A DNA stretch of 56,646 nt from Halobacteriales archaeon QS_4_66_20. GTDB taxonomy: Archaea; Halobacteriota; Halobacteria; Halobacteriales; Haloarculaceae. The translations under genes and the position numbers were made by a program. The stretch lies in NCBI GenBank assembly GCA_003021015.1, contig PXRK01000028.1, positions 39,104-95,749 on the forward strand, given 5' to 3'. How positions within the stretch are numbered: the first letter of the stretch is position 1; each line of letters opens with the position of its first letter. The notes under the pieces were generated by a model that was not told the origin of the DNA, did no database searches, and saw only the letters and a list, made by a program, of their open reading frames with translations. This document shows positions 8,610 to 39,793 of the stretch, piece after piece.

Positions 8610-10757
8610 TCAGAGCGAGTTCACGTCCACGTCCGGCGGATACCAGGCACAGAGGTCGGCGGAGGCCCGCCCGACCTGGGAGTTGAGGTCGTCGGTCGTC
8701 GTCACGTAGTTCGTCGACATCGTCGGGACGTCGATCTCGTTTCGGACCTGCTCGCTGTAGCGTTCCAGCACCTCGGCGTCGAACTTCGGCCGGTCGTTCG
8801 GCGTAGTCTGGCCGGCGACGACCGAGAGCAGGTCACAGCCGTGTTCGGCGAGCTGGCTGCCAGTCGCGAAAGCGTCACTCAGGTTGAACCCGTCCGGGCG
8901 CCAGTCGGTCGCGTTGAGCTTCACCGAGACCGGCTTGTCGTCGGGCCAGACCGCCCTGACGGCGTCGAACACCTCGAGGGGGTAGGTGAGTCGGGCCTCC
9001 TGGGAGCCACCGTACTGGTCCTCGCGCTCGTTGGTCAGCGGCGAGAGGAAGCTCCCGAGCAGGTACCCGTGAGCCATGTTCAACTGCAGGTGGTCGAACC
9101 CTGCGTCGTCGGCACGCTCGGCGGCGTCGACGAACGCCTCGCGGATCCGCGCCATGTCGTTTTCGTCCATCGGCGTCGGCGTCTGACTCCGGCTCGTGTA
9201 CGGGTTCGGGGAGGGCGCAAACAGCTCCCAGCCGTCGTCGAGCGGGCGGTCGAGCCCCCGTTCGCGCGGCTGTGTCGCGCCCCGGCGGCCGGCGTGGAAC
9301 AGTTCGACGCCGAGCGCCGAGTCGCTCCCGGCGTCGGCGACCGACTCCGCCCAGTACTCCCCGTGCTCGGCCGTGAAGATGCCCGGGGTGCCGGGGTGGA
9401 GACGGCCGTGTTCCGAGACGGCCAGCGGCTCCGTCAGGACCAGTCCGGCGCCCTCGCCGGCGAGGTCGACGAGCCGTTGGCGCTGTTCGGTCGCGGGGTG
9501 TCCGGTCGACCCCGCGGTGCTCGGCCCGGGTGCGAACACTGCCCGGTTTTCGAGCCGGAGCCCCCGGAGCGAGAACGGCTGGAACATCGGCGGCCGGGCG
9601 ATTGCCCGCCGTTCGTCGTCGGTCGCGTACCCGGCGAACCACCTGTCGAACCCGTCGGCGTACTCGGCGTCGCGGAGCTTGAGCTCGTCGTACGTGATGC
9701 GGCCGCTCCTGGTCAGCAGGTTGAACGCGAACCGCTCGGGGTCGAGGTCGGTGAACCGCTCGGTGTTCTCGAAGTAGTTCCGGCTCGTCCTGGCCGCGTC
9801 CTGGATGCGGTTGACCGGCTCCCGTCGCTCCTTCTCGTACCAGTTGAGGACACTCTCCAGGTTCTCCGGCCCTTTCTCGACGAACGACTCCTGGAGGGCG
9901 ATTGCGTCCTCCATCGCCATCTTCGTCCCCGACCCGACCGAGAAGTGGGCGGTGTGTGCCGCGTCGCCGAGCAGACAGACGTTCCCGTGAGACCAGGTCC
10001 GGCAGTTCACGACCGGGAAGTTCCGCCACTGGTAGAGCTTCGATTCGAGGTCGTAGTCGCCGAGGTGGTCGGCGAACAGGTCCTCGAAGTACGCCTGCCC
10101 CGCCTGTTCGTCCATCTCGTCGAGGCCGGCGTTCTCGTAGGTCTCCTCGGTGCACTCGACGATGAACGTGCTCTTCTCGCCGGGGTAGGCGTGGACCCGC
10201 CAGAGGCCGTCCTCGTTCTCCCGGAAAATGAACGTGAACACGTCGAACGGTTTCTCGGTGCCGAACCAGGCGAACTTGGCCTCCCCCATCCGCACTCGGG
10301 GTTTGAACTGCTCCTCGTAGGCCTCGCGGGTGACGCTTTTGAGCCCGTCAGCCCCGATGAGCAGGTCCGCCTCCGCGGCGTAGCTTTCGGGGTCCTCGAC
10401 GGTGTGCTCCCAGTGCATCCCCACGCCGAGTTCGTCGCATCGCTCGCGCAGAATGTCTTTGAGTGTGGCCCGCATCATCCCGGCGAACGCGTGGCCGCCA
10501 CACCGGATGTACTCCCCGCCGAAGTGGATGTCGATCGGGTCCCACTTCGTGAACGCGTCCGTGATCCGCTCGTGGGTCGCGTCGTCGGCCTCCCGGAGCC
10601 TGCTGAGGGTGCTGTCCGAGAAGACGATCCCCCAGCCGTACGTGTTGTCTGCGGGGTCGCGCTCGTAGACGTCGATCTCCCAGTCCGGATACGTCTTCGC
10701 GAGGAGGGCGCTCGCGTAGAGACCCCCCGGCCCACCCCCGATGACGTTTACCTTCAT
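8610..10757 (-). CDS. Two-domain flavin monooxygenase / old-yellow-enzyme fusion, 2-aminobenzoyl-CoA or salicylyl-CoA monooxygenase type
   Basis: 715 aa. Residues 1 to about 390 are a class-A FAD monooxygenase: N-terminal VNVIGGGPGGLYAS, GADGLKS near the middle and the late FAD motif CLLGDAAHTAHFSVGSGTKMAMEDA. Residues about 395-715 are an old-yellow-enzyme TIM barrel: FQPFSLRGLRLENRAVFAPG, VELFHAGRRGA, LNMAHGYLLGSFLSPLTNER and QYGGSQEARLTYPLEVFDAV. This order is characteristic of 2-aminobenzoyl-CoA monooxygenase/reductase and the related salicylyl-CoA 5-hydroxylase, which hydroxylate, and in the former case also reduce, an aromatic CoA ester. No CoA ligase is visible in the window, so the true substrate is open. 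ATGA overlap with the LLM oxidoreductase upstream. Confidence 0.85.
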   Translation of the reverse strand: MKVNVIGGGPGGLYASALLAKTYPDWEIDVYERDPADNTYGWGIVFSDSTLSRLREADDATHERITDAFTKWDPIDIHFGGEYIRCGGHAFAGMMRATLKDILRERCDELGVGMHWEHTVEDPESYAAEADLLIGADGLKSVTREAYEEQFKPRVRMGEAKFAWFGTEKPFDVFTFIFRENEDGLWRVHAYPGEKSTFIVECTEETYENAGLDEMDEQAGQAYFEDLFADHLGDYDLESKLYQWRNFPVVNCRTWSHGNVCLLGDAAHTAHFSVGSGTKMAMEDAIALQESFVEKGPENLESVLNWYEKERREPVNRIQDAARTSRNYFENTERFTDLDPERFAFNLLTRSGRITYDELKLRDAEYADGFDRWFAGYATDDERRAIARPPMFQPFSLRGLRLENRAVFAPGPSTAGSTGHPATEQRQRLVDLAGEGAGLVLTEPLAVSEHGRLHPGTPGIFTAEHGEYWAESVADAGSDSALGVELFHAGRRGATQPRERGLDRPLDDGWELFAPSPNPYTSRSQTPTPMDENDMARIREAFVDAAERADDAGFDHLQLNMAHGYLLGSFLSPLTNEREDQYGGSQEARLTYPLEVFDAVRAVWPDDKPVSVKLNATDWRPDGFNLSDAFATGSQLAEHGCDLLSVVAGQTTPNDRPKFDAEVLERYSEQVRNEIDVPTMSTNYVTTTDDLNSQVGRASADLCAWYPPDVDVNSL

Positions 10758-11608
10758 AGTTCGCTCTCGACGACGCGCTCGAGTCGCTCGTACTGTTCGA
10801 TCCCGCCAACCGCCGGGAACATGATGAGTTCGTCACAGCCCCGTTCCTCGTAGCCGCGGATGAACTGGACGACCTCCTGTGGGGTCGTCAACAGCCCGTC
10901 GGCGATCCGCTCGGCGAACGGTCCAGTGAAGGAGTAGTAATCAAGGAGGTACTCCTCGCCTGCCTCAGCGACGCTCTCGTCGCCGAGCGCGTAGTACCCG
11001 TGGCCCCACAGGTCGGGATTCCCGGGCCGGCCGGCCTCGCTCCAGGCTGCGGTGGCACTGTCAGCACAGTCGCCAAAGCGCCGTGGCGGGCCGCCGGCGC
11101 CGATCCAGCCGTCCCCGAACCGGACGACGCGCTTGTAGGCGGGATCGCTCTCGCCCCCGATCAACAGCTGCGGGCCTCGTTCCTGAACCGGGTCCGGACC
11201 GATCTCGTCGCCCTCCCAGTGCTGGATGAGCGCCTCCAGCTGGCCGGTGAACCGCCGCCCGCGACTGCGGTAGTCGGTCCCCGCAGCCTCGTAGTCCTCC
11301 TGTCGTGCGCCGAGGGCGACGCCGAGCGTCAACCGACCGTCCGAGAGCACGTCGAGCGTCGCAGCTTTCTTCGCCAACATCGCCGTGCTCCGCAGTGGGC
11401 CGGCAATGATCGACGTGGCGAGTCGGATCTCCTCGGTGGCCCCTGCACACACGCTCAGCGTCGACATCGGGTCCAGACTCTGATAGACAAGGCGGTCGAA
11501 CACCCCGATGCTGGTGAACGGTCCATCGTCGGCGCGACGAGCATAGTCGAGAACGAGATCTCGGTCGGTTCCTTCCAGCGTATTTGGGAGGCCAATACCC
11601 ACCTGCAT
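10754..11608 (-). CDS. LLM-class, probably F420-dependent, flavin oxidoreductase
   Basis: 284 aa from ATG 11608; the open frame continues 28 codons upstream but the family starts at MQVGIGLPN. It is a luciferase-like (beta/alpha)8 protein: ARRADDGPFTSIGVFDRL, RLATSIIAGPLRS, KKAATLDVLSDGRLTLGVALG, PQLLIGGESDPAYKR and VRFGDGWIGAGG. These are features of F420-dependent hydride transferases (methylene-H4MPT reductase / LLM group). It overlaps the monooxygenase gene by 4 nt, so the two should be made together; it may act on the same aromatic intermediate. The exact reaction is not predictable. Confidence 0.85.
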   Translation of the reverse strand: MQVGIGLPNTLEGTDRDLVLDYARRADDGPFTSIGVFDRLVYQSLDPMSTLSVCAGATEEIRLATSIIAGPLRSTAMLAKKAATLDVLSDGRLTLGVALGARQEDYEAAGTDYRSRGRRFTGQLEALIQHWEGDEIGPDPVQERGPQLLIGGESDPAYKRVVRFGDGWIGAGGPPRRFGDCADSATAAWSEAGRPGNPDLWGHGYYALGDESVAEAGEEYLLDYYSFTGPFAERIADGLLTTPQEVVQFIRGYEERGCDELIMFPAVGGIEQYERLERVVESEL

Positions 11609-11688: not shown

Positions 11689-12828
11689 TCACTGCGGTGT
11701 TGCGACATCGTCGATAGCGTCGACGGCAGCGTCGATCTCCTCGTCGAGCGTAAAAAAATGGGGCGCTATCCTGATGCCGCCGCTCCGATAGCTGACGTTG
11801 AACCCACGCGAGTGAAGGCGGTCCTTGACCTGTTCGGCGTTCTCCACCTGGACGTTGACGACGCCGCCCCTGTGCTCGCTCTCCCTGGGCGTCATGACGG
11901 AGAACCCGCAGTCTGTCGCCCGCTCCATCGTCCGGGCCGTCCGTTCGACGACTCTCTCCCGAACGGCATCGACGCCGAACTCCTGGATCGTTTTCATCCC
12001 CGCGTTTGCCGTATAGGCGTTCGACACCGGCGGTGTTCCAAGTTCGAACCGCCGTGTGCCCTGTGCGAACCCGGGATCCTGGATGTCGAACCCGAACGTG
12101 TTCTCGACACCGAACCAGCCCCTGCTCGCCGGTTCGAGTCCGTTTGCCAGGTCCCCATCCACGTAGAGGAACGCAATGCCCGGGCCGCCGAGCAGGAATT
12201 TCAGTGTGCCGGTCGTGAGCATGTCGATGCCCTGTTTCTTCACGTCGATCGGAACGATGCCCGCGGACTGATAGGCGTCGAGAAACAGGTAGCCACCCCG
12301 GTCGTGAACGGCGTCTGCGACGGCCCGGGCGTCGATCAACCCGCCGGTGAACGAGGAGGCGTGTGCCGTACAGACGAACTGTGTGTCCTCGCTCATCTGC
12401 TCGACGTACGCGTCGACTGGGACGTAGTTTTTTTCACCCGGGTCGGCGAAGCGAAGCTCCACGCCACGCTTCCGGTGGGCGTGCCAGAACTGTGGAACCG
12501 TCGGGAAGTCGAGCAGCGACGTGACGACCTCGTTTCTGTCCTCGAACTCGAACGCGCTTGCGACCTGTGAAACTGCGGAGGTGGCACTGGAGACAACAGC
12601 TATCTCCTCCGGGTCCGCGTTGATGAGAGACGCGAAGGTATGCCTCGCCTCCTCTACTTCGTCGAGCCACTCGTCCCACGGGCGTGCTTTTTCCAGCCAG
12701 GCACGCTGATACGCCTGGAGAGCATCGATGCCACTCCGCGGAACGGGACCGACCGAACAGCTCCGCAAGTGCGTCCAGCCCTCGTCCGCGATGGCCGGGA
12801 ACCTGTCCCGCCACGATTCGAGAGACAT
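11689..12828 (-). CDS. Class-V PLP-dependent enzyme (kynureninase / cysteine desulfurase-like), paralog 1
   Basis: 379 aa from ATG 12828, chosen because a TATA-like box lies 27-34 nt upstream. Fold type I, aminotransferase class V. The cofactor Lys is K210 in TTGTLKFLLGGPG, and D184 in FLDAYQSAG contacts the pyridine ring. TLKFLLGGPG resembles kynureninases and isopenicillin-epimerase-like members more than desulfurases, and no desulfurase active-site Cys loop is visible. A close paralog lies at 19597-20766. Followed by the LLM/monooxygenase pair 80 nt downstream on the same strand and divergent from a Liv-type importer. A C-C or C-N lyase/transaminase role in the same pathway is inferred; kynureninase activity itself is not established. 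Confidence 0.8.
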   Translation of the reverse strand: MSLESWRDRFPAIADEGWTHLRSCSVGPVPRSGIDALQAYQRAWLEKARPWDEWLDEVEEARHTFASLINADPEEIAVVSSATSAVSQVASAFEFEDRNEVVTSLLDFPTVPQFWHAHRKRGVELRFADPGEKNYVPVDAYVEQMSEDTQFVCTAHASSFTGGLIDARAVADAVHDRGGYLFLDAYQSAGIVPIDVKKQGIDMLTTGTLKFLLGGPGIAFLYVDGDLANGLEPASRGWFGVENTFGFDIQDPGFAQGTRRFELGTPPVSNAYTANAGMKTIQEFGVDAVRERVVERTARTMERATDCGFSVMTPRESEHRGGVVNVQVENAEQVKDRLHSRGFNVSYRSGGIRIAPHFFTLDEEIDAAVDAIDDVATPQ

Positions 12829-12965
12829 TGTGGCACCCGTTGACTGGCCACGTACATAAAATGCGAAGGTTAGACGAACCGCTCGTTCTGCAAACCTCGT
12901 GGTGAGCAGAGGGGCTGGCCCGACACAATCTTTACTGGAGAGCGGATTCTGTGTTGTGGTACCGC
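12829..12965. promoter_or_regulatory. Divergent promoters of the class-V enzyme and first livHMG operon
   Basis: In 137 nt there is a minus-strand TATA-like box (CATAAAAT on the plus strand, 12855-12862) about 30 nt before ATG 12828, and a plus-strand TCTTTACT (12929-12936) about 30 nt before ATG 12966. Both spacings fit leaderless or very short-leader mRNAs, and the close face-to-back arrangement suggests common control of import and metabolism. Confidence 0.5.
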
Positions 12966-14072
12966 ATGAGCGTCCTTCGGACCTCCAATCGCGTTCGGGG
13001 GTTCCTCTCTCGTCGATCAACAGTCCTCGCTCTACTGGGAGCCGCAATACTACTGTTGGACCTCACACGGCGTGTGGTGAGCGGCGATATTGCGGGATCG
13101 TCACTCGCCTTGTTCCTCTGGGATGGAGTCGTCATCGGTCTCGTCGTCGGTCTCGCTGGTATCGGCCTCTCGATGACCTACAACATCCTCTCGTTTGCCA
13201 ACTTCGCCCACGGTGATTACCTCACCGCTGGCGCGTTCAGTGGGTGGGTCGCAGCCTTCCTGGTTGCAGGGGCCGGCCGGTTCGACGTCGGCGACCTGTT
13301 CCTCCTCGGCGGCCGGGGCGGCGCGGTCGACTCACAGACAGTCGGCGTGAGCGTGACGGCGACACCTGTCGCTGTGGTCGTCGGGATGCTTGTCGCGGCC
13401 GGTGTGACTGCCGTTCTCGCTCTCGTCGTCGACAGAGCCGTCTACCGCCCCATCCGCGACCGCAGTGGCATATCGTTGCTGATCGCCAGCATCGGAGTCG
13501 CATTCATCCTGCGATACGTGATCGCCTTCGTCTTTGAAACCGAGCGGTTGGGCGTGACCAGCGGTGCCAAAGTGCCCTCGACGGTCGTCCCCCTCCTCGA
13601 CGTCCGGATCACCGCTCACGAGGCGACGCTCGTGGTTATTGCCACGGGCCTCATGTTCGGGTTTCACGTGTTCCTGCAGCGCACGAAACTCGGAGCCGCC
13701 ATGCGGGCGATGTCGGACAACAAACAGCTTGCCCGGATAACCGGCATTCCCGTCGAACGGATCGTCCGACTGACCTGGGTGATCGGCGGTAGTTTCACCG
13801 GGATCGCCGGGTTCCTCGTCGTTCTTGAATCCGGATCGATCTCGTTCAACTTCGGCTGGCTCCTGCTCCTGTTGATATTTGCGGCAGTCATCCTGGGTGG
13901 CATCGGCTCGATCTATGGTGCGATTCTCGGCGGACTTACTATCGGGGTCATCAGCCGCCTGTCACTGGTCTGGTTACCGCCGTCTATCATGAACGCAACC
14001 GCTTTTGCCGTGATGATCCTGGTCCTCATCGTCAGACCACGGGGACTGTTCAGCGGGGGGACGTCGGTATGA
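12966..14072 (+). CDS. livH: Branched-chain amino acid type ABC transporter permease (LivH type), set 1
   Basis: 368 aa, polytopic membrane protein. Start at ATG 12966 rather than 12951, placed about 30 nt after a TATA box. Family signatures are LAGIGLSMTYNILSFANFAHGD near residue 60 and the EAA-like loop RTKLGAAMRAMSDNKQLARITGI near residue 250, which contacts the ATPase, followed by AAVILGGIGSIYGAILGG. First gene of livH-livM-livG; ATGA-type overlap with livM. Such importers take up amino acids, amides, urea or aromatic acids, so the name does not fix the substrate. Confidence 0.93.
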   Translation: MSVLRTSNRVRGFLSRRSTVLALLGAAILLLDLTRRVVSGDIAGSSLALFLWDGVVIGLVVGLAGIGLSMTYNILSFANFAHGDYLTAGAFSGWVAAFLVAGAGRFDVGDLFLLGGRGGAVDSQTVGVSVTATPVAVVVGMLVAAGVTAVLALVVDRAVYRPIRDRSGISLLIASIGVAFILRYVIAFVFETERLGVTSGAKVPSTVVPLLDVRITAHEATLVVIATGLMFGFHVFLQRTKLGAAMRAMSDNKQLARITGIPVERIVRLTWVIGGSFTGIAGFLVVLESGSISFNFGWLLLLLIFAAVILGGIGSIYGAILGGLTIGVISRLSLVWLPPSIMNATAFAVMILVLIVRPRGLFSGGTSV

Positions 14073-15397
14073 CGCTCGCCGACCGTACACGGACCATCTT
14101 CAGCCGGGACTGGACGACCGATCTGCCCGGCGGCGACGCCACCCTCGTGGTGCTCGTCATGCTGGCGCTGTACACCTGGGTCGGACTATTCGGCATCATC
14201 CTCGGCTTGGACGTCAGCGGACTCCTCAACAGCCTGCAGACGATTACGTTCTACGCTGCAGTGTACGCGATCCTCGCGCTCGCACTCAACCTACAGTGGG
14301 GGTACGCCGGGCTGTTCAACGTCGGAGTTGTGGGCTTCATGGCTGTCGGAGTCTACACGATGGCCATTCTCTCCCGACCGGTCGCCCCCATCTCCGGACC
14401 GCCGGGCTTCGGTCTTCCCCTGCCGATCGGGCTGATCGGGGGGGTACTCGCTGCCGCTGTCATCGGACTGGTCGCAGCGATTCCCGCGCTCAGGGTCGAC
14501 GACGATTACTTCGCGATAATCACCCTCGGCCTGGCCGAAATCATCCGAATCGTTATTTCCTCGCCAGCGGCCGACGAGTTCAGGGTGGGAAGTATCCGGA
14601 CCGGCACCGGCGGCGCGAACGGCCTCAGCCTGCCCCAGAATCCGATTCACTCGATCTACTACACTGATCCGGCTTCGCCTGCCGCCGGGACGACACCGGT
14701 CGGTGACGCCGTCTTCTCGATTTTCGAGGCCGTGCACGTCGATCCAGCAGTCGTCGTCAAGATCACCTACGCTGGCGTCCTTGTCGGATTCGTCGTCCTG
14801 TATTTCGTGTTTCTCTCGCGTGTCGGTAACTCGCCGTACGGAAGGGTGCTCAAAGCCATTCGCGAGGACGAACTCGTGGCGAACTCGCTGGGCAAGAACA
14901 CGGACCGATTCAAGGTCGAGACCTTCATCGTCGGCTGTGCACTGATGGGTCTCGGCGGCATCCTCTGGCAGGGGAGCCAGGGGTTCACCAGTCCCGGGAA
15001 CTATCTCCCCCAGCAGACGTTTTACATCTTCATCGCGTTGATTATCGGCGGTGCAGGCTCGAACACGGGGAGTATCATCGGCGGCGCGCTGTTCGCCGGA
15101 CTCCTCTTCGAAGGCCCGCGACTGATCAGCCGCCTCGTCGATCAGTTCCTGACGTTCCGATCCAGTCCGAACAACTTCGTCGACGCAGTCGTGCCACTCT
15201 TGTCACTCGACATCGGTCCGTTCATCGTGTACGCACTCGACAGTATCGCCTACCTCCGGTTCATTCTCGTGGGGAGCATCCTGATCTATTTCATCCACAA
15301 CCGCCCGCAGGGACTGCTCGGTCACCGCAAGGAAATCGCGGCGAGTATCGACCTGCTAGACCGGTCGGCAGAGACGGAGGGAGCCGACGATGAGTGA
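14069..15397 (+). CDS. livM: Branched-chain amino acid type ABC transporter permease (LivM type), set 1
   Basis: 442 aa, polytopic. LivM signatures: LALNLQWGYAGLFNVGVVGFMAVGVY, ALRVDDDYFAIITLGLAEIIR, the coupling loop SPYGRVLKAIREDELVANSLGKN, and IIGGAGSNTGSIIGGALF. A region after residue about 190 is longer than in bacterial LivM. Ends RPQGLLGHRKE with a short acidic tail. Overlaps livH by 4 nt and livG by 8 nt. Confidence 0.93.
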   Translation: MTLADRTRTIFSRDWTTDLPGGDATLVVLVMLALYTWVGLFGIILGLDVSGLLNSLQTITFYAAVYAILALALNLQWGYAGLFNVGVVGFMAVGVYTMAILSRPVAPISGPPGFGLPLPIGLIGGVLAAAVIGLVAAIPALRVDDDYFAIITLGLAEIIRIVISSPAADEFRVGSIRTGTGGANGLSLPQNPIHSIYYTDPASPAAGTTPVGDAVFSIFEAVHVDPAVVVKITYAGVLVGFVVLYFVFLSRVGNSPYGRVLKAIREDELVANSLGKNTDRFKVETFIVGCALMGLGGILWQGSQGFTSPGNYLPQQTFYIFIALIIGGAGSNTGSIIGGALFAGLLFEGPRLISRLVDQFLTFRSSPNNFVDAVVPLLSLDIGPFIVYALDSIAYLRFILVGSILIYFIHNRPQGLLGHRKEIAASIDLLDRSAETEGADDE

Positions 15398-16229
15398 GCA
15401 CAACGGGACGACCACGGCCGATCCCTCACCGAAGTCGAACGACAACAGCCAGTTATCCGAAACATCGTTACTGGAGGTCGACAGCCTGCAGAAGTCGTTC
15501 GGGGGCATCAGGGCCGTCGACGACGTGAGTTTCGAAATCCGCTCGGGATCGATCGTGGGATTAATCGGGCCGAACGGGGCGGGCAAGTCGACGACGTTCG
15601 ACCTCATTACTGGCGTCGCCAGCCCCGACGCAGGCTCGGTGTACTTCCAGGGGCGCAACATCACCGGTCGCCAGCCGTACCGGAACGTCAACCAGGGGCT
15701 GGTCCGGACGTTCCAGTTGTCACGGGAACTGGATGAGATGACAGTCATCGAGAACCTCATCCTCGCGCCCCAGGACCAGACTGGCGAGTACTTCTGGCAG
15801 CCGGTACTGCCGGGTACACGGAAGCGCGTGAGGTCCGAAGAACGGGACCTCCGCGAACGCGTCTGGGAGACCCTGGAATTCTTCGAGTTAGACCACCTCG
15901 CCGACGAATACGCTAGAAACCTCTCGGGCGGCCAACGGAAACTGCTCGAACTTGCGCGCGCGCTGCTGACCGACCCGGACATTCTACTGCTGGACGAACC
16001 GCTCGTCGGCGTGAATCCGACGCTCGAACGGAAACTTCTCGGCAGGATTCACGACCTCAACGATCGGGGCTACACGTTTCTTCTCATCGAACACGACGTC
16101 GACGTCATCATGGAGAACTGCGAACGTGTCATCGTCATGAACCAGGGACAGATCCTCGCGGACGGGAGTCCCGCCGAGGTCAGCGACGACCAGCGCGTTC
16201 TCGAAGCGTACCTCGGGGAGACGGTCTGA
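15390..16229 (+). CDS. livG: Branched-chain amino acid type ABC transporter ATPase (LivG type), set 1
   Basis: 279 aa with a 25-residue polar leader before the ATPase fold. Walker A GLIGPNGAGKSTTFDL, ABC signature LSGGQRKLLELARALL, Walker B ILLLDEPLVGVNP and switch His in LLIEHDVDVIM. It carries the LivG-type insertion DQTGEYFWQPVLPG. No livF partner is present in this set; the only livF of the window is at 30250. The gene ends 6 nt from the convergent solute-binding protein gene. Confidence 0.93.
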   Translation: MSEHNGTTTADPSPKSNDNSQLSETSLLEVDSLQKSFGGIRAVDDVSFEIRSGSIVGLIGPNGAGKSTTFDLITGVASPDAGSVYFQGRNITGRQPYRNVNQGLVRTFQLSRELDEMTVIENLILAPQDQTGEYFWQPVLPGTRKRVRSEERDLRERVWETLEFFELDHLADEYARNLSGGQRKLLELARALLTDPDILLLDEPLVGVNPTLERKLLGRIHDLNDRGYTFLLIEHDVDVIMENCERVIVMNQGQILADGSPAEVSDDQRVLEAYLGETV

Positions 16230-17474: not shown

Positions 17475-17494
17475 GGTTAGTGATAACATACCGC

Positions 17495-20766: not shown

Positions 20767-20954
20767 CGCAATCCCGCTCCCGACCGCCCAGTCGTGTCTC
20801 TCCCGGATGTCCGCACTGCCAGAACGGGATGCTCCAACCCGTTGATAGCGTTACGAGAAACAGCGGAACGCTCACCCGTTACCCGACCGAGCATCCGTTC
20901 GGGACTGTTCCGAGTCATGTGGGACAGTGGTCTCAAATTCTCTTAAAACCGGCG

Positions 20955-21209: not shown

Positions 21210-21291
21210 TGGCTCTCGGGATCTGTTGGAGTATTGGCGAGGTTCGGACCGCCACTGCCGTACGGAAACCGAAGTCGGTGAGCGGGGCGCC

Positions 21292-30970: not shown

Positions 30971-32374
<1,404 letters not shown>

Positions 32375-32386: not shown

Positions 32387-32557
32387 TTAGGGGGTAATTC
32401 CCCGTCTCTTTCGTTTCCTTGAGTATTGCGAGGGCTGTAGTCAAATCAATATATTTTAGGATCGAATATTAACTATATGTAAGTAAAGTATCACATTTAT
32501 CGACCCGGAAACGTCGAGAGCCCGTTCGACCCGTACTCCCGAGTGGTGCTCCGCTCC

Positions 32558-32672
32558 ACTCATAGTGATTGCTGTGACTCTTTACCGCCGAGTGTTCGTC
32601 AGACTTCACGTCCAGACCGTGACACTGCCGTAATTGCGATGCGGTGCCGAAAACAATCACAGCACTATCAGT
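32558..32672. mobile_element. MITE family 2, copy 2 (115 bp)
   Basis: Ends ACTCATAGTGATTGCTGTGA and a shortened right end (CACAGCACTATCAGT). The most diverged of the full-length copies inside, so probably older. The right end forms the last Asp codon and TGA stop of the hydratase-aldolase gene. Lies upstream of the binding protein 2 promoter region. Confidence 0.85.
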
Positions 32673-33648
32673 CCCGCAACGACTCCGCGAGTTCACGCCA
32701 GCGGCGGCCGGATTCCCGCCCGCCCTCGAGGTAGGCTTCCGGGGTTTCCGGGTCGGGCGGCCTGACCGGGCCGGCGCGTATGAAGCCAGCCTCGTTCATC
32801 CTGGCCTTGACGATGGCTGGGGTATGCCGGCCGAATATCTGCATGTTCCCCTGGGGGAAGAACGTCTCGAACGTGTACGCCATTTCCTTCGACAGTTCGA
32901 CCGCACGGTTCCAGTCTCCCGCCTCCAGCGCGCCCATCATCGCGAGCGTCGGTTCGGGGCCGCAGGAGACGCTCGACGACCAGCAGACTGGCTCCACGTC
33001 CGGGCGCCACGTCATCGCTGCAGGAAGATACGCGTCCATCTGCAGCACCCTGCAGTGCCCGTCAGCCTCCCGGACCTGCCGCATCGTCTCCCAGTACTCC
33101 GGCCCCAGTGAGACGTACTTCACGCCGACGAAGTTCTCGATCGGGACGAGGCGGTCCCAGGAGGTGATCGGGCGCTTGAACGCGCCGGGATTGTCGTAGG
33201 CGACGATCCCGAGCTCCGGGACTGCATCGGCAACTTGCTGGTAGAAGGTCACCGTCGCGTCCGGGGAGAGTTCACACCACATCGGCCTCCCCAGCAGGAG
33301 GCCGTCACAGCCGACGTCCCGGGCGAACCGTGCCCGCTGTATCGTCGTCCGGGTGTTCAACGTCGTGGGTCCGGCGAGGACGTCCATCTCCGTCGCCGTC
33401 TCCGCAGCGGTTCTCGTCACGGTTCGCCACTCGTCGGGCGTGAGCGCGAACGCCTCCCCGGAAGTTCCCGTCAACATCAGTGCGTTCACCCCCGCATCTT
33501 CGAGCGCCGCGACGACGCGCTCGGTCTCCTCGACGTCGACCGTGTTCTGGGCGTTCGGGTCGTTTGCATCCGGCGTTGCTGGGGTGGGCATGATGGCAAA
33601 GACGCCGGTGACATCGTCGACAGTCAGTCGAAGACGCATGGCTCCCAT
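32668..33648 (-). CDS. DapA-superfamily aldolase, hydratase-aldolase (NahE/PhdG) type
   Basis: 326 aa class-I aldolase barrel. Schiff-base Lys K174 in FVGVKYVSLGP and catalytic Tyr Y148 in VAYDNPGAFKRPI. LMLTGTSGEAFALTPDEW is the pyruvate-binding region. The YDNPGAFK and RPMW (FYQQVADAVPELGI) stretches resemble trans-o-hydroxybenzylidenepyruvate hydratase-aldolases of aromatic degradation better than dihydrodipicolinate synthase. Such enzymes cut pyruvate off a side chain. Fits an aromatic or amino-aromatic pathway. 44 nt downstream of the class-I aminotransferase gene. C-terminal end set by the MITE. Confidence 0.82.
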   Translation of the reverse strand: MGAMRLRLTVDDVTGVFAIMPTPATPDANDPNAQNTVDVEETERVVAALEDAGVNALMLTGTSGEAFALTPDEWRTVTRTAAETATEMDVLAGPTTLNTRTTIQRARFARDVGCDGLLLGRPMWCELSPDATVTFYQQVADAVPELGIVAYDNPGAFKRPITSWDRLVPIENFVGVKYVSLGPEYWETMRQVREADGHCRVLQMDAYLPAAMTWRPDVEPVCWSSSVSCGPEPTLAMMGALEAGDWNRAVELSKEMAYTFETFFPQGNMQIFGRHTPAIVKARMNEAGFIRAGPVRPPDPETPEAYLEGGRESGRRWRELAESLRD

Positions 33649-33692: not shown

Positions 33693-34865
33693 CTATCGCA
33701 ACTCCGTCTCGATCGCCCGTTCGATGCGATCCAGCCCCGTTCCGAGCCGGTCGATGTCGATGGCGTAGCTGAGACGCAGGAACCCCTCACCGCCGGCCCC
33801 GAACGCAGTCCCTGGGGTCGTCGACACGCCGTACTCCTCCAGGAGATGGAGTGCGAGGTCCATCACCGGCCGTTCGAACGCCGTGACGTCCAGAAACAGG
33901 TAGAACGCTCCCTCGGGTCGAACACACTCTACCTCGGGCCACTCCCGTATGCGCTCGAGGGCGTACTCACGACGTTCCTCGTAGGTATCGACCATCTCCG
34001 AAAACGGGTCCGAGGGCCCGTCGAGTGCGGCGAGCCCAGCCGCTTGCGAGACGCTCGACGGACAGAGCGTCGTCGCCTGCCTGAGCACCTGGGCGGCCTC
34101 GATGACCTCGGTAGAACCGGCGAGCCACCCGAGTCGCCAGCCCGTCATCGCGTAGCTCTTCGAGAAGGAGTTGACCGACAGGACCCACTCCGGGTCGTCG
34201 GCGATGGCGGCGACGCTCCTGCGAGTTCCCTCGTAGGTGAGTTTCTCGTACACTTCGTCGGCGACCACGTACGCGTCGTGATCGGCGGCGACGCGGGCCA
34301 GTTCCCGGACGTCCGACTCGTCGTAAACCCGACCTGTCGGGTTCGTCGGCCGGCACAGTATCACGGCGGCCGTGTCCCCGGTGACGTGGTCGGCGACCAG
34401 TTCGTGGTCGAGGTCGAAGCCGGTCGCCGCCGGCAACGGCACCTGGACCGGTTCGGCACCGGTTAACTCCACCTGGGCCGTGTAGTTCGCGAACCCCGGC
34501 GTCAGAACGACTACCTCGTCCCCGGGACCCGCGACCGAGAGTAATCCGACGGTGAGCGCCTCGATAGCGCCGACAGTGACCAGAACGTCGTCTGCCTCGA
34601 CGGGCACGCCGTTCTCCCTGGCTATCCGTTCCGCGATCGCTTCGCGGAGGCGCTGGACCCCGTAGGTGGAGGTGTAGTGGGTGTCCCCGTTCCGCGCTGC
34701 TTCAGCGGCACCGTCGACGACGTGGGCGGGTGTGTCGAAATCCGGCTCACCGATCTCCAGACGGACGAGGTCCCCGTCGTAGGCCTGCGCTCGTTCGAAC
34801 ATGATGCGGATCTCGGAGCCTTCGGCGCCCTCGGTCCGCGCTGCGAGCCGGGTCTCCCGTGACAT
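33693..34865 (-). CDS. Class-I/II PLP aminotransferase
   Basis: 390 aa, fold type I. PLP Lys K236 in VNSFSKSYAMTGWRLGWLAG, LCRPTNPTGRVYDESDV, VADEVYEKLTYEG, and the C-terminal RLSYAIDIDRLGTG with the Arg binding the substrate carboxylate. Resembles archaeal aspartate/aromatic aminotransferases (AspC-type subgroup I gamma). Between RidA 2 (upstream, 115 nt) and the hydratase-aldolase (downstream), minus strand, suggesting an amino-to-oxo acid step just before aldol cleavage. Amino acid specificity cannot be told. Confidence 0.9.
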   Translation of the reverse strand: MSRETRLAARTEGAEGSEIRIMFERAQAYDGDLVRLEIGEPDFDTPAHVVDGAAEAARNGDTHYTSTYGVQRLREAIAERIARENGVPVEADDVLVTVGAIEALTVGLLSVAGPGDEVVVLTPGFANYTAQVELTGAEPVQVPLPAATGFDLDHELVADHVTGDTAAVILCRPTNPTGRVYDESDVRELARVAADHDAYVVADEVYEKLTYEGTRRSVAAIADDPEWVLSVNSFSKSYAMTGWRLGWLAGSTEVIEAAQVLRQATTLCPSSVSQAAGLAALDGPSDPFSEMVDTYEERREYALERIREWPEVECVRPEGAFYLFLDVTAFERPVMDLALHLLEEYGVSTTPGTAFGAGGEGFLRLSYAIDIDRLGTGLDRIERAIETELR

Positions 34866-34980: not shown

Positions 34981-35454
34981 TCACTCGCGGCGCGCGTGCT
35001 CCAGTTCCCACTCCCCGTTCGGCACGACAGCGTCCGCGTCCACTTCCAGGCGCATCCCCTCCAGTCCGACGTCGTCCGATTCGATCATGGTACTCGCGGG
35101 GTCGTGGCCCTCCGGGAGAAACGACTCCCGGACGCGGCAGACGCCGAGGTACTCCTCCTCGGAGAGTGCTTCGGATATCAGTTTCATCCGAACCACGTCG
35201 CGCATGTCCCCGTCGACCAGTGCCAGCATCTCCTCAATCGTCGCCAGTATCGTCCGTAGCTGTTCGACGGCCTCGCCGGGGGCAACCACAGAACCGTCAG
35301 CGTCGATCGCCGCTGTCCCGGAGATGAACACCCGTCGATACTCGGGAAAGTCCACCGCGACTGCCTCGGAGTGAGGGAGTTGCTCTACCCCTTCCACGCC
35401 ATCGAACAGGTCGAGACCCGCTCCGACATCGGGTCCGAGTATCGTCTTTCGCAT
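34981..35454 (-). CDS. ridA: RidA/YjgF family protein, copy 2
   Basis: 157 aa from ATG 35454 (an in-frame ATG at 35478 is possible). Longer than copy 1, with an N-terminal extension. Recognisable stretches: RRVFISGTAAIDADGSVVAPG, QLRTILATIEEMLALVDGDMRDVVRMKLI, VRESFLPEGHDPASTMIES and LEVDADAVVP. Like copy 1 it has PASTMI in place of the RidA PARS/Arg motif, so both belong to the same divergent group. First gene of a possible RidA-aminotransferase-aldolase run. Confidence 0.85.
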   Translation of the reverse strand: MRKTILGPDVGAGLDLFDGVEGVEQLPHSEAVAVDFPEYRRVFISGTAAIDADGSVVAPGEAVEQLRTILATIEEMLALVDGDMRDVVRMKLISEALSEEEYLGVCRVRESFLPEGHDPASTMIESDDVGLEGMRLEVDADAVVPNGEWELEHARRE

Positions 35455-35539
35455 ACACCTGTTTGACCACGACGCCACTTTACAGTACCTGCCGCTGGAG
35501 AGAGTCCTGCCCAGCCCGATCCCGGAGTTCCCGATCGGG

Positions 35540-35654
35540 ATTCATAGTGATTGTTGTGAGTCGTTACCGCTGTCGACCCATCAGACTCCGGTGTCAGCCC
35601 GTGAAACTCCCGAGAATGCGATGCGACTCCGAAAATAATCACAACACTAAAATG
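35540..35654. mobile_element. MITE family 2, copy 3 (about 115 bp, right end decayed)
   Basis: Starts ATTCATAGTGATTGTTGTGA. The interior is almost identical to the reverse complement of copy 1. The right repeat is altered (TCACAACACTAAAATGAG), so the exact end is uncertain. It lies in the 236-nt divergent gap between RidA 2 and the E1 alpha gene and may carry or separate their promoters. Confidence 0.8.
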
Positions 35655-35690: not shown

Positions 35691-36860
35691 GTGAGCCACG
35701 GTATCGAACAACCCGTCCCGCTCGGCGAGGGAAACAGTTCCATTGCGGCGTGTACGATCAGTCAGCCCGACGAAACCCCGCCACGGTACCAGCTCGTCAA
35801 CGAGGACGGCGAGTACGATCCGGACAGCCTTCCCGACCTGGACGACGAGGAGCTGCTCGACCTGTTCGAGTGGATGCTGCTCCAGGAGATCGTCGACGAA
35901 CGAATGGTGACGCTCCAGCGCCGCGGCGAGATGGGAACGTACGCCTCGGGCCGGGGGCAGGAAGCGAGCATCGTCGGCAGTTCCTACGCCCTCCGGGAAG
36001 AGGACTGGCTGTTTCCCTACGGGCGTGAAGCGGCGGCGATGCTGATCCAGGGGATGCCGCTCCGGGACCTCATGCTGTACTGGCGCGGCGTCGAGGACGC
36101 GAACATGCAGAAAGCCCACCGGGTATTCCCACCAGCGATCGCGATCGGCACCCACATCCCGGTCGGCGTCGGGTACGCCTGGGGGCTGGGGCTGGGGGAA
36201 GAGGACGCCATCGCGGCGCTGTTTCATGGCGATGGTCACCCCAGCACGGGCGAGTTCCAGTCGGGCGCCAACTTCGCTGGCGTCATGAACGCGCCGGCCC
36301 TGTTCTACTGTCAGAACAACGGGTACTCGATCTCGGTGCCGTTCGACGAGGGACAGACGGCTGCACAGACGGTCGCACAGAAAGGGATGGCGTGGGGGAT
36401 CGACGGGATCCGGGTGGACGGCAACGACGTCCTCGCGGTGTACGACGCCGTCTCGCAGGCGCGCGAGCACGTCGCGGACGGCAACCCGACGATCGTCGAG
36501 TCCGTCACGTACCGGCTGGAGGCCCACACGACCAACGACGACCCGTCCCGCTACCGCGAGGCCGACGAGGTCGACTGGTGGGAGGAGCGCGAGCCGATCA
36601 GCCGGTTCAGGACCGTACTCGAGTCCGAGGGAATCCTGGCGGACGGCGACGAGGACGCGATGCGCCAGGAGCTCAACCAGCAGTTCGACGAGGCCAAGGA
36701 GGCAGCAGACGGGTACGAGAGCCGCGGGATCGAGGAGCTGTTCACCTACGTCTACGACGAACTGCCGCCGGAACTCGAACGGCAGCTCGGTGAGTTCGAA
36801 CGGTTCCTGGAGGGGCATCCCGAGGCGCACGACTACATCGATCACAGGCCGAAGGGGTGA
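35691..36860 (+). CDS. 2-Oxoacid dehydrogenase E1 component, alpha subunit
   Basis: 389 aa from GTG 35691, preceded by GGTGA 7 nt upstream. Thiamine-diphosphate enzyme; TPP/metal motif GDG (180-182) to NN (209-210) with GHPSTGEFQSGANFAGVMNAPALF between. Also GTYASGRGQEA, LFPYGREAAAML and ESVTYRLEAHTTNDDP with the conserved His and the YR.R-type phosphorylation-loop region. Decarboxylates a 2-oxoacid and passes the acyl group to lipoyl-E2. No E2 or E3 follows, so it must share partners or act otherwise. Substrate (pyruvate, branched-chain or other oxoacid) not determinable. Confidence 0.92.
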   Translation: MSHGIEQPVPLGEGNSSIAACTISQPDETPPRYQLVNEDGEYDPDSLPDLDDEELLDLFEWMLLQEIVDERMVTLQRRGEMGTYASGRGQEASIVGSSYALREEDWLFPYGREAAAMLIQGMPLRDLMLYWRGVEDANMQKAHRVFPPAIAIGTHIPVGVGYAWGLGLGEEDAIAALFHGDGHPSTGEFQSGANFAGVMNAPALFYCQNNGYSISVPFDEGQTAAQTVAQKGMAWGIDGIRVDGNDVLAVYDAVSQAREHVADGNPTIVESVTYRLEAHTTNDDPSRYREADEVDWWEEREPISRFRTVLESEGILADGDEDAMRQELNQQFDEAKEAADGYESRGIEELFTYVYDELPPELERQLGEFERFLEGHPEAHDYIDHRPKG

Positions 36861-36867
36861 ACCGGAC

Positions 36868-37866
36868 GTGACAGACGCGAACCGAACACTGGTCGAAGCG
36901 GTCAACGATGGGTTACACACGGCGATGGCCGCCGATGAGCGCGTCATCGTCTACGGCGAGGACGTCGGGGATAACGGCGGCGTCTTCCGAGCGACCGACG
37001 GCCTCATCGAGGCGTTCGGGGACGAGCGGGTCGTCGACACGCCGATCGCGGAGATATCGATCGTCGGCAGCGCCGTCGGGCTCTCGATGGCCGGCTTCAG
37101 GCCGGTCGCCGAGATCCAGTTTTCGGGGTTTATCCCGCCGGTGTTCAACCAGCTCGTGTCGATGGCGAGCCGGATCCGCTGGCGGACCCGCGGCGAGCAC
37201 AACGCCCCGATGGTCGTTCGCGCGCCGTACGGCGGCGGCGTCCGCGCGCTCGAACACCACTCGGAGAGCCTCGAGTCCGCCTACGCCCACGTCCCCGGGC
37301 TCCAGGTCGTCATTCCCGGCACCCCCTACGACACCAAGGGGCTGCTCCAGAGCGCGATCGACGATCCGGACCCCGTGTTGTTTCTGGAGCCGAAGCTCCA
37401 CTATCGGGCCGGCCGCCAGGAGGTGCCGGACGGGCAGTACAGCGTCCCGCTCGGCGATGCGGCGGTCCGCCGGAAGGGGACGGACGTCACCGTCATCAGC
37501 TGGGGGTCGATGATGCCCCCCACGATGGAGGCGGTCGACTCGCTCGAGGACCGTCGGGACGTCGACGTCGAGGTGATCGACGTCAGAACGCTGTCGCCGC
37601 TGGACCGCGAGACCATCGTCGAGTCGATCAAGAAGACGGGGAAAGCGACAGTCGTCCACGAGGGGCCGAAAAGCGGCGGGTTCGCGGCGGAACTCGTGGC
37701 GACGCTCAACGAACGGGCGCTCATGTACCTGGAGGCGCCGATCCACCGCGTCACGGGGTTCGACGTGCCGATCCCGATGCTCGGGATGGAGGACTACTAC
37801 CTGCCGAACCCGCCCCGGATCGCGGCCGGCATCGAGCGGACTCTCGCCGGCGAGGGCGGAGTCTGA
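36868..37866 (+). CDS. 2-Oxoacid dehydrogenase E1 component, beta subunit
   Basis: 332 aa from GTG 36868, 7 nt after the alpha subunit stop. Motifs: VYGEDVGDNGGVFRATDGL, RVVDTPIAEISIVGSAVGLSMAG, RAPYGGGVRALEHHSES, VIDVRTLSPLDRETI and HEGPKSGGFAAELV. Forms the alpha2beta2 E1 heterotetramer with the preceding gene. The active-site His pair in EHHSES is kept. Ends before the convergent livM of set 3, where 56 nt hold no gene. Confidence 0.93.
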   Translation: MTDANRTLVEAVNDGLHTAMAADERVIVYGEDVGDNGGVFRATDGLIEAFGDERVVDTPIAEISIVGSAVGLSMAGFRPVAEIQFSGFIPPVFNQLVSMASRIRWRTRGEHNAPMVVRAPYGGGVRALEHHSESLESAYAHVPGLQVVIPGTPYDTKGLLQSAIDDPDPVLFLEPKLHYRAGRQEVPDGQYSVPLGDAAVRRKGTDVTVISWGSMMPPTMEAVDSLEDRRDVDVEVIDVRTLSPLDRETIVESIKKTGKATVVHEGPKSGGFAAELVATLNERALMYLEAPIHRVTGFDVPIPMLGMEDYYLPNPPRIAAGIERTLAGEGGV

Positions 37867-37922: not shown

Positions 37923-38939
37923 TTACCCGAACCAGTCACGTGCTCGTCCCGGGAGAGCCGTCAGGTCGTACCGGTCGGCGAGCGCTTCGAGTCGCGGGAC
38001 GACCCCGTCGCTGAAGTAGAGGAACAGGCCGATGAGGAGGAGCCCGAACGCGGCAGTCTCCCAGTCCCCGAAGACGCCGATCTGCTCGTTGATGACGATC
38101 ACCAGCCCCGCACCGACCAGGGGGCCGAGCATCGTCCGCATGCCCCCGAGGACCAGAACGATGAGGACCGTCACGTCGACGCTCTGGAACGCGAAGTTGG
38201 TCGGCGTGACCCGCCCCTGCGCAGTGGCGTACAGCGGGCCGACGAGACCGATCAGGACCGCCGCGGTGAACCCGGCGATCATCTTGTACCGCATGACGTC
38301 GATGCCGACCGACTCCGCGGCGACCCTGTCCTGCCGGATGGCGTCGAACGCGAGGCCGTACCGCGTCCGGATCATGCGGCTGTAGAGGACGAACGTCCCC
38401 GCCAGGAGGAGCAACAACAGGTAGTAGTTCACGATCCGTGACGGGAACCCGAGCGCCGCCTCGACGGGGGGAAGGTCGAGACCGGGGAACCTGAGGCCCG
38501 TGGTCCCGCCGGTGACGTCCCGGGCACCCTCGAAGAACTCCTCGGCCGCCAACTGGAGACTCAGTGTGAGAATCGCGATAACGATGATCGACATCTCGAG
38601 CCGTGCCGCGAGATAACTGACGAACACGCCGACGAGTCCCGCGACCAGCGCCCCCACAGGGAACAGGGCCCAGACAGTCACGCCGGTGGCGTCCACGAGA
38701 TAAACCGTGGTGTACGTCGAAATGCCGGTCAGTGCGCCGACGAACAGGAACAGCTGATCCGTGTGTGCGAACACGATGTTGAGCGCCATCCCCAGCAGCG
38801 CGAACGCGAGAAACAGCTCCAGGAGGCGCGCCCGGTACGTGCCGCCGGTTTGCATGACGTACAGCGGAAGCACCGAGAGAAGAGCGAGCGTCGCCACGGC
38901 CTTCGTCCTGTCGGCGGCCGAGCCGAACAGTCGCGTCAT
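37923..38939 (-). CDS. livM: Branched-chain amino acid type ABC transporter permease (LivM type), set 3
   Basis: 338 aa from ATG 38939, ATGA overlap with livH upstream. Shorter than the two other LivM proteins and closer to the usual bacterial length. LALNIVFAHTDQLFLFVGALTG in place of the canonical GYAGLFNVG stretch marks a diverged subgroup. The coupling loop TRYGLAFDAIRQDRVAAESVGIDV and the ATAQGRVTPTNFAFQSVDV strand, then LGGMRTMLGPLVGAGLV, are recognisable. No ATPase and no binding protein adjoin this pair. Confidence 0.88.
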   Translation of the reverse strand: MTRLFGSAADRTKAVATLALLSVLPLYVMQTGGTYRARLLELFLAFALLGMALNIVFAHTDQLFLFVGALTGISTYTTVYLVDATGVTVWALFPVGALVAGLVGVFVSYLAARLEMSIIVIAILTLSLQLAAEEFFEGARDVTGGTTGLRFPGLDLPPVEAALGFPSRIVNYYLLLLLLAGTFVLYSRMIRTRYGLAFDAIRQDRVAAESVGIDVMRYKMIAGFTAAVLIGLVGPLYATAQGRVTPTNFAFQSVDVTVLIVLVLGGMRTMLGPLVGAGLVIVINEQIGVFGDWETAAFGLLLIGLFLYFSDGVVPRLEALADRYDLTALPGRARDWFG

Positions 38940-39793
38940 GCGATCTCCTCCGGCCTGACGAGCAACGCGAGGACGGCGACGCCGAACAGGATGATGTTCG
39001 CAATGTACGCGCCGATGAAGAAGTTGGCGTAGGTGATTACGAGCCCGAGTAACAGGCCTGCCCCGACGGTGCCCTGTATGTTCCGGACCCCGCCGACGAT
39101 GGAGACGATGATCGCAAAGACTGTCAGCTCGAAGGCCGCGTCGGGCCGCAGATTCGTGTGAAACCCCTGGAGAATCCCCGCGACCCCGGCGAGGACGACG
39201 CTGACGACGAAGATGAGCGTTCGGATCCGCCGGGCGTCGATGCCACAGAGCGTCGCACCGGTCTCGTCCTGGAACACCGTCCGCGTCGCTTTCCCCAGGT
39301 AGGTCCGCTGCAGAAACAGAAATAGCAACGCGAGCAGCACCGACGCGACGGCGATGATGACGACGGTCGACCCTCTGATGCGGAGGCCGGCGACGGTGAG
39401 CGCCGGCACCCCGTGTGACACCGAGAACCCCTCGGCGTACTCGACGAACATCACGCCCTCGAAAAACAGCATCAGGCCGAGCGTGACGAAGATGCCGAGC
39501 AGGATCCGGTCTTCCCCCTCCTGTCGGTAGACCAGCGAGAGCAGCGTCCGGTCCACTGCCACCCCGACGGCCGCGACCACCGCCACGCCACCCACGGCGG
39601 CGACGGCGACGTTCGGCGAGACGGCCAGAAACTCGGAGGTCGCGATCAGCGCGATCAGCGCGAAGGCACCGATCGCGATGTTCAGGACGTTTCCGAGGCC
39701 GAACACGAGCGTGATCCCGGAGCCGAGCAGCGCGAACAGCAGCCCACGAGCAATCGCGTCGACGAATACCTCCACCAGCGTCGTGCTCGCCAT
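38936..39793 (-). CDS. livH: Branched-chain amino acid type ABC transporter permease (LivH type), set 3
   Basis: 285 aa. Signatures: LLGSGITLVFGLGNVLNIAIGAF, the coupling loop RTYLGKATRTVFQDETGATLCGID, and IVGGVRNIQGTVGAGLLLG. Compact bacterial-type length, unlike sets 1 and 2, so it entered the region separately. TATA-like AGTATAAAGT at about 39821-39830 is some 30 nt before ATG 39793, implying a leaderless livH-livM transcript. Confidence 0.9.
   Translation of the reverse strand: MASTTLVEVFVDAIARGLLFALLGSGITLVFGLGNVLNIAIGAFALIALIATSEFLAVSPNVAVAAVGGVAVVAAVGVAVDRTLLSLVYRQEGEDRILLGIFVTLGLMLFFEGVMFVEYAEGFSVSHGVPALTVAGLRIRGSTVVIIAVASVLLALLFLFLQRTYLGKATRTVFQDETGATLCGIDARRIRTLIFVVSVVLAGVAGILQGFHTNLRPDAAFELTVFAIIVSIVGGVRNIQGTVGAGLLLGLVITYANFFIGAYIANIILFGVAVLALLVRPEEIA

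Follow-up and report, generated by a model that had tools for sequence, protein, structure and literature searches.

Halobacteriales archaeon QS_4_66_20 carries a 31-kb island (8610–39793) that is a mosaic of a resident part and a block running from the KynU1 gene to the RidA2 gene, and no single unit. The window, the whole stretch of 56,646 nucleotides analysed here, lies on contig C28 of an assembly of 2.89 Mb in 86 contigs (89% complete), and the island sits between the tryptophan biosynthesis genes trpG, trpE, trpF and trpD (4353–8405, minus strand) and pheA (from 40027, plus strand), which form its borders. The block has a patchy distribution, and the whole is probably a real, recurring and undescribed nutrient-scavenging system. 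We propose, with roughly even confidence and from gene families and gene neighbourhoods, that it is a mosaic catabolic locus whose upper pathway would feed a lower pathway acting on anthraniloyl-CoA. An initial annotation, made from the letters alone, had described a catabolic island for an amino-substituted or cyclic nitrogen compound; the recurrence reported below in three other genomes (G361, G432 and G183) makes this a fair description with respect to an amino-substituted compound. Pfam and NCBIfam scans, from which the gene identities were taken, confirmed the families that it named between trpDFEG and pheA and added a peroxiredoxin.

The resident part comprises, on the left, an ACMR-type fusion of a FAD monooxygenase with an OYE-like reductase (8610–10757, minus; PF01494 and PF00724) and a luciferase-like (LLM) oxidoreductase (10754–11608, minus; PF00296, and TIGR03619 at 136.5 bits, under its cut-off). 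On the right are E1alpha and E1beta (together E1ab) of a 2-oxoacid dehydrogenase (35691–37866, plus) and the permeases LivM3 and LivH3 (37923–39793, minus). We searched 18 genomes of the genus, 146 of the family and 391 of the class. Four of the family genomes carry ACMR (E ≤ 1e-60), three of them in the genus: the source genome and the congeners G104 and G108. In both congeners trpD directly adjoins ACMR and LLM, as in the window (TrpD was found in 17 of the 18 genus genomes searched), and the block from KynU1 to RidA2 is absent. Nucleotide alignment stops at 11608/11609 and restarts at 37240 (G104) or 37961 (G108), with 25.6–26.4 kb of the window missing. In G108 LLM is followed by LivM3 and LivH3 (73–78% identical) and then a MaoC-cluster gene; in G104 it is followed by two short E1beta pieces. 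The idea of one 31-kb unit does not survive this comparison, as two congeners keep ACMR-LLM beside trp, one with LivMH3 next to LLM, without the block between. In the family genomes nothing matched KynU2 at more than 34% identity (E ≤ 1e-40) except the window's own KynU1. The GC content is 0.60–0.65 for the genes from KynU1 to SBP2, compared to 0.65–0.71 for trp, ACMR, LLM, E1, LivMH3 and pheA; it is 0.66–0.67 for the DHDPS and aminotransferase genes and 0.64 for RidA2. The block may have been gained in the source lineage or deleted in the congeners; G104 retains E1beta fragments by LLM. No integrase or transposase was seen among the scanned open reading frames (ORFs; short ones were not all scanned), and there is no tRNA in the window.

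The block opens with KynU1 (11689–12828, minus; PF00266 and PF22580), a class-V pyridoxal phosphate (PLP) enzyme. A first Liv transport set (LivH1, LivM1 and LivG1; 12951–16229, plus) and a Liv-type solute-binding protein (SBP1; 16236–17489, minus; PF13458) come next. Then follow RidA1 (17733–18131, minus; PF01042), a DAO-family amine/amino-acid oxidoreductase (18367–19521, minus; PF01266) and KynU2 (19597–20766, minus), a second class-V PLP enzyme by family scans, alignment and tree. The ATP-dependent cyclic amidohydrolase subunits HyuA (21406–23439, minus; PF01968, PF05378 and PF19278) and HyuB (23436–25265, minus; PF02538, 602 bits) precede a cupin (25530–26075, minus; Cupin_2 at 25.2 bits, slightly below the 27.2 cut-off) and the Bcp/PrxQ-type peroxiredoxin (AhpC/TSA, Prx; 26186–26650, minus). 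A second Liv set (26840–30954, plus) consists of LivH2 (26840–28048, its start picked by eye), LivM2, LivG2 and LivF2, and is followed by SBP2 (30971–32353, minus; PF13458), whose Gly/Asn/Asp-rich linker is encoded by 18-nt repeats at 32106–32279. The block closes with a DHDPS-fold, PhdJ-like pyruvate hydratase-aldolase (32668–33648, minus), a class-I aminotransferase (AT1; 33693–34865, minus; PF00155) and RidA2 (34981–35478, minus; PF01042, 44 bits). The three Liv-type sets named initially are all present, but the full complement of H, M, G, F and SBP is confined to set 2: set 1 lacks LivF, and set 3 is two permeases, with LivG, LivF and SBP not beside them in the window.

Between KynU2 and HyuA (20767–21405) there is no intact gene, only the remnant of an Amdase (arylmalonate decarboxylase)-family gene at about 20964–21186 (plus), its middle missing. 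Tblastn with the intact protein L046:14380-15087, whose family was assigned by Pfam, recovered residues 11–65 (37/55 identical, E 2e-22) and about 206–231. The 'racemase/isomerase remnant' of the initial annotation is thus a real pseudogene. In G432 an intact gene of this family adjoins RidA1 and DAO homologues.

We compared 26 island and 18 flanking genes (the ribonucleotide reductase gene, trpGEFD, pheA and 12 right-flank ORFs) with fetched stretches of 12 other haloarchaea, G275 included, at a threshold of at least 55% identity over at least half the length. The comparison leaves out the congeners and a second group of ACMR homologues (41–52%); the stretches were picked by ACMR, KynU or DHDPS matches, so the four bait genes are no evidence. 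Matches were found for 23 of the 26 island genes, 19 of them non-bait, among which LivG1 matches the same place as LivG2. LivH1, LivM1 and SBP1 fell below 55%. None of the 18 flanking genes reached 50%: 17 had no match, and pheA reached 49% in G361. The recurrence of island genes therefore exceeds chance.

Haloarchaea of another family carry most block genes at 57–85% identity, and the order of the genes is partly kept. Co-occurrence in other haloarchaea, the check that had been suggested initially, was borne out: in both G361 and G432 a stretch of less than 60 kb contains much of the set, upper and lower genes alike, and G183 carries much of it over three separate loci. The G361 stretch (contig C3, 199–258.7 kb) holds LLM, ACMR, E1ab, AT1, DHDPS, an aldehyde dehydrogenase (ALDH), KynU2, Prx, cupin, a HyuAB of another type, a ligase and LivMH3; orthologues of DAO and RidA1 were not found in it. 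This cluster also includes a PALP-family protein (L057:12670-13839) that resembles TrpB by eye. The G432 stretch (contig C1, 1736–1795.7 kb) combines upper genes (Amdase, RidA1, DAO, two KynU, RidA2 and HyuAB) with lower ones (ACMR, LLM, E1ab, ECH, SDR, RidA, acyl-CoA dehydrogenase (ACAD) and MaoC), and has no DHDPS, AT1, cupin or Prx. A stretch of about 27 kb in G183 reads RidA1, two M24 peptidase genes, DAO, KynU2, HyuAB of the other type (30–39%), cupin and Prx, and continues with SBP2/LivFGMH2, two other genes, ALDH, DHDPS, another gene and AT1. This is the order of the window, except that the Liv2/SBP2 segment is inverted and HyuAB is of a different type; identities are 62–85% apart from HyuAB. 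KynU-family proteins occur in eight of the 391 class genomes (E ≤ 1e-60). With the source excluded, ACMR is present in 4/7 genomes with KynU compared to 15/383 without (Fisher p 1.3e-4), and LLM-linked ACMR in 4/7 compared to 5/383 (p 4.5e-6), both uncorrected for phylogeny.

The assignment of the lower part is fairly secure on the available sequences, and ACMR-LLM is most likely part of an anthraniloyl-CoA pathway. The ACMR protein has the layout of a fused monooxygenase/reductase (PF01494 at residues 2–320, PF00724 at 391–704), and this layout together with the neighbour context makes anthraniloyl-CoA the best reading of its substrate. ACMR occurs in 20 of the 391 class genomes at E ≤ 1e-100. 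Besides the source, and with G104 included, 20 genomes carry it; stretches of all 20 were fetched, neighbouring genes were clustered and one representative of each cluster was scanned by Pfam. LLM adjoins ACMR in all ten genomes whose ACMR is at least 58% identical (G104, G108, G349, G361, G384, G360, G187, G183, G432 and G228). Where ACMR is about 41–52% identical (G125, G442, G193, G364, G222, G397, G322, G421, G239 and G261), no LLM match was found near it in any of the ten; an AMP-ligase-cluster gene is nearby in all ten and an SSF-cluster gene in nine. IclR, ECH, SDR, RidA, ACAD and MaoC genes surround ACMR in G349, G361, G360 and G384, with a thiolase in G349 and G361; G183 has much of this set as well, and so does G432, some 35 kb away from ACMR. 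E1ab lies near ACMR in G349, G361 and G432, with E2 and lipoamide dehydrogenase alongside (L040, L046), and the window E1 proteins are 68–76% identical to those of these genomes. Relatives of missing partners are encoded elsewhere in the source genome: an AMP-binding-family CoA ligase (G000:C68:27851-29476), a candidate aryl-CoA ligase, is 73% identical to the L043 ligase, itself in an ACMR locus, and the end of contig C20 carries RidA (60%), ACAD (61–65%), MaoC (52%), LivG, LivF and SBP, gene kinds that the window lacks as partners of this part. A kynureninase is present in the ACMR-LLM loci L044 (353 bits to TIGR01814), L045 and L047 (both 77% identical to the L044 protein), as is an IDO-family protein (PF01231, 263 bits in L045; assigned by clustering alone in L044 and L047). 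The IDO-family protein, kynureninase, LLM and ACMR of these three loci together form a candidate tryptophan–kynurenine–anthraniloyl-CoA pathway.

In the upper block, KynU1 and KynU2 (56% identical to each other) appear from their sequences to be a kynureninase-like family that is distinct from kynureninase. They scored 68 and 76 bits against the TIGR01814 kynureninase model, below its 246 cut-off. Lys213, Asp187 and Arg356 of KynU2, which we take to be the class-V PLP core, correspond to residues 227, 201 and 375 of 1qz9 and are invariant in the 18 aligned sequences (alignment and tree exclude L012 and L013, which are 23–26% identical). His204 and Tyr226 of 1qz9, presumably catalytic as well, are Gln and Leu in both proteins; the three haloarchaeal kynureninases aligned keep them. 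We rejected KynU1 and KynU2 as kynureninases on this score and these two residues. The KynU2 structure model (mean pLDDT, the predicted local distance difference test, 93.4) fits cysteine desulfurases and kynureninase alike, so its fold does not decide the matter; 1qz9 had the highest TMq (0.87) among the best 50 matches and ranked 10th by E-value. In the tree KynU1 groups with L058a and L061 (support 100/99), both of which adjoin window-type HyuAB, and KynU2 groups with seven loci (89/89, not strong), in five of which DAO and RidA1 are adjacent; haloarchaeal kynureninases are distant from both. Bacterial relatives are 30–38% identical, and the one in Bacillus RO2 has as neighbours M24 homologues, a DAO homologue (27%) and what looks by eye like an oligopeptide transporter.

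HyuA and HyuB, a two-gene unit with the domains PF05378, PF01968, PF19278 and PF02538, belong by this layout to the hydantoinase/oxoprolinase family. They are 71–73% and 80–85% identical to proteins of G183 and G432, where window-type HyuAB (71–85%) adjoins KynU1 homologues (L061 and L058). RidA1 is 51–70% identical in six other genomes, and RidA2 is 57% identical to the product of a gene between two KynU genes in G432. The solved chain nearest to DAO, 1y56_B, is titled sarcosine oxidase. The DHDPS-fold protein scored 240, 214 and 211 bits against PhdJ/NahE-type chains compared to at most 52 for DapA-type ones; a lysine after GV, presumably the Schiff-base residue, and the YDNP/YNxP region align with PhdJ/NahE, as expected for a hydratase-aldolase. 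Its homologues occur in five class genomes (E ≤ 1e-60), at 75–85% in G183 and G361 and 48–51% in two others. The aminotransferase is 66–78% identical in G361 and G183, and its best chains are aspartate/aromatic aminotransferases. Cupin matches were found in ten class genomes, at 73–78% in G361 and G183 and 34–39% in the other seven with a match; the peroxiredoxin adjoins the cupin in the window, G361 and G183. We also considered the cupin as a 3-hydroxyanthranilate dioxygenase and dropped this, as it had no NCBIfam match and weak, mixed PDB matches. LivHMGF2 is 69–78% (LivH2 69%) and SBP2 74% identical in G183; LivG1 is the only member of Liv set 1 to reach 55% elsewhere.

How might these parts work together? 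The sequences themselves show the gene content, its recurrence, the absence of the block from the congeners, and the relatives of ligase, ACAD, RidA and MaoC elsewhere in the source genome; the substrate, the link between the upper and lower parts, and all the reactions are those that we infer. The Liv transporters of the insert-like block would import an amino- or lactam-bearing compound. HyuAB may open a cyclic amide at the expense of ATP, the KynU-family PLP enzymes may cleave an amino-acid side chain, and DAO with RidA may deaminate. The aminotransferase and hydratase-aldolase would yield an (aromatic) aldehyde besides pyruvate. From the upper part an aromatic acid with an ortho-amino group would then pass to the lower pathway, where anthranilate may be activated by the acid-CoA ligase of contig C68 and the ring of anthraniloyl-CoA hydroxylated and reduced by ACMR, ACMR-LLM being the putative aerobic, dearomatising step. 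RidA, acyl-CoA dehydrogenase and MaoC of contig C20 would act downstream with the E1-type enzymes, and the window LivMH3 probably partners LivG, LivF and SBP of that contig. A more specific form of this proposal, which we consider doubtful, is a dedicated haloarchaeal salvage of oxidised tryptophan ending at anthraniloyl-CoA. Sunlight photo-oxidises tryptophan in proteins to kynurenine- and oxindolylalanine-type residues, and LLM proteins can use F420. Imported peptides or free compounds would have the oxindole lactam opened by HyuAB and the side chain cleaved by a novel family of class-V PLP lyases, variants would be handled by DAO/RidA and by the branch of aminotransferase and hydratase-aldolase, and a two-protein ACMR-LLM, whose LLM partner may use F420, would dearomatise anthraniloyl-CoA.

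Several observations weigh against an upper pathway feeding anthraniloyl-CoA. In G183 the upper block and ACMR are about 245 kb apart. Besides the source, both parts occur in four genomes (G183, G432, G361 and G349), which represent three genera of a single family, so their co-occurrences of KynU and ACMR are no independent events. KynU2-DAO-RidA1 is accompanied elsewhere by M24 and M32/M29 peptidases: in L004, L062 and L063 its companions are homologues of M24 and of SBP_bac_5-type (oligopeptide-binding) proteins, and the fetched DNA gave no ACMR match; in L059 (G349) it is found together with an M32 peptidase, some 77 kb away from ACMR; and in L005/L064 (Halorussus litoreus) KynU has an M32 peptidase and no other island genes nearby. 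From these companions, in stretches without ACMR, the block may serve another substrate. The replaced residues of KynU1 and KynU2 count on the same side, as does the window island itself, in which neither a regulator nor an ALDH was seen, unlike G361 and G183, where ALDH lies near DHDPS. The initial annotation had named scattered genes, or separate functions of subclusters, as what would speak against it; the set does co-occur, but its subclusters can evidently work apart. We therefore regard as possible, if clearly less probable than a joined pathway, two unrelated neighbouring islands: an anthraniloyl-CoA locus and a KynU2-DAO-RidA1 block for amino acids from peptides that are N-substituted or bear a secondary amine, with HyuAB serving hydantoins or other lactams. 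The M24 protein of L004 is closest to Xaa-Pro dipeptidases among solved chains (for which reason we rejected it as an ectoine hydrolase or creatinase), an S15 X-Pro peptidase is present in L058, a creatininase-family gene in G183 and an isochorismatase-family gene in G432, and the sarcosine oxidase likeness of DAO fits as well. However, ACMR is also found in four of the seven other KynU genomes, both parts lie within 60 kb in two of them, and relatives of aromatic hydratase-aldolases suit amino-acid peptides poorly. The cluster in L004 is adjoined by an MCM helicase with intein domains (L004:10131-14339).

The lower part could also degrade salicylate rather than anthranilate, with the ACMR-type protein as a salicylyl-CoA 5-hydroxylase; the nearest equivalog, NF006101, is named bifunctional salicylyl-CoA 5-hydroxylase/oxidoreductase and gave 792 bits. 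That score is below the model's 1078 cut-off, a point against the anthraniloyl-CoA reading as well, and the kynureninase and IDO-family protein in relatives' loci, with RidA in others, fit an amino substrate, which renders salicylate improbable. Transferred genes that had gathered by chance at a spot prone to insertion, and that share no function, would account for the lower GC from KynU1 to SBP2, the short repeats between modules, the one decayed gene and the absence from congeners. Such a chance gathering is hard to reconcile with much the same set, partly in the same order, at 62–85% identity in another family when no flanking gene reaches 50%; the 12-genome comparison disfavours it, and we consider it very unlikely.

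The favoured reading, an upper pathway joined to anthraniloyl-CoA breakdown, has partial counterparts among known systems. Bacteria (Azoarcus evansii, Arthrobacter sp. Rue61a) degrade anthranilate via CoA thioesters with a fused flavin monooxygenase/reductase, as excerpts of PMC3534580 describe. The CoA ligase of the source genome and the beta-oxidation-type genes beside ACMR in relatives resemble this pathway, which differs in that the locus here is haloarchaeal, has linked LLM and E1 genes, keeps ligase and ACAD on other contigs and is joined to an upper block. The LLM partner, constant in haloarchaea with the closer ACMR, goes unmentioned in the excerpts of PMC3534580 on the bacterial pathway. 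Tryptophan degradation through IDO/TDO, kynureninase and anthranilate is matched by the genes in three relatives' ACMR-LLM loci, but no gene of the window island passes the kynureninase model or matches IDO, KynU1 and KynU2 being another family. ATP-dependent lactam opening and IaaCE members are described in excerpts of PMC5214803 and PMC8453981. HyuAB shares both subunits and the Pfam domains of the HyuAB/oxoprolinase/caprolactamase family, which includes predicted 2-oxoindoleacetyl-CoA lactamases of indoleacetate metabolism. It differs in scoring 518.5 and 305.7 bits against the caprolactamase NCBIfam equivalogs, below the 1000 cut-off, and its presumed likeness to IaaCE is at the level of the family. 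The hydratase-aldolase resembles PhdJ and NahE, trans-o-hydroxybenzylidenepyruvate hydratase-aldolases, over nearly its full length (240 and 214 bits), but adjoins an aminotransferase and RidA2 outside any naphthalene/phenanthrene operon.

Excerpts of PMC9007349 name tryptophan degradation via anthraniloyl-CoA monooxygenase/reductase as one of the pathways left out there because too little is known. The matches listed for open-access full text, judged by titles and abstract starts, included none that deals with an anthraniloyl-CoA pathway in haloarchaea. The initial annotation knew of no described pathway with this combination of genes, and none was found among the open-access papers searched; its ACMR-LLM half, however, can be tied to a known kind, anthranilate breakdown via CoA thioesters. 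The data offer testable evidence for a haloarchaeal anthraniloyl-CoA pathway, with kynureninase and IDO-family genes alongside in three relatives. They also single out an uncharacterised class-V PLP family that accompanies HyuAB or DAO-RidA in archaea and has distant bacterial relatives. Either would extend the chemistry known for the turnover of nitrogen and aromatic compounds in salt lakes.

Repeats resembling miniature inverted-repeat transposable elements (110–125 bp, with terminal inverted repeats) lie at 21287–21412, 32552–32664, 35534–35646 and 40885–41009, and related elements at 4258–4379 and 25357–25537. They are often at module borders, and the copies at 21.3 and 25.4 kb flank HyuAB. 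Genome-wide the element gave at least 46 matches, about 40 of them long (40 of 226 candidates were scored, the other window copies not among them); with so many copies, we dropped the idea that the island is enriched in short repeats. The right flank appears to be core DNA of the genus, as pheA and the gene at 42917–44665 are near each other in stretches of four congeners (G099, G097, G101 and G110; window 40027–44665), with a 7TM histidine kinase between them in G097 and G101. At the left end, a ribonucleotide reductase large-subunit frame with intein domains (Intein_splicing, Hint_2 and LAGLIDADG_3; 3–3668, minus) runs off the window.

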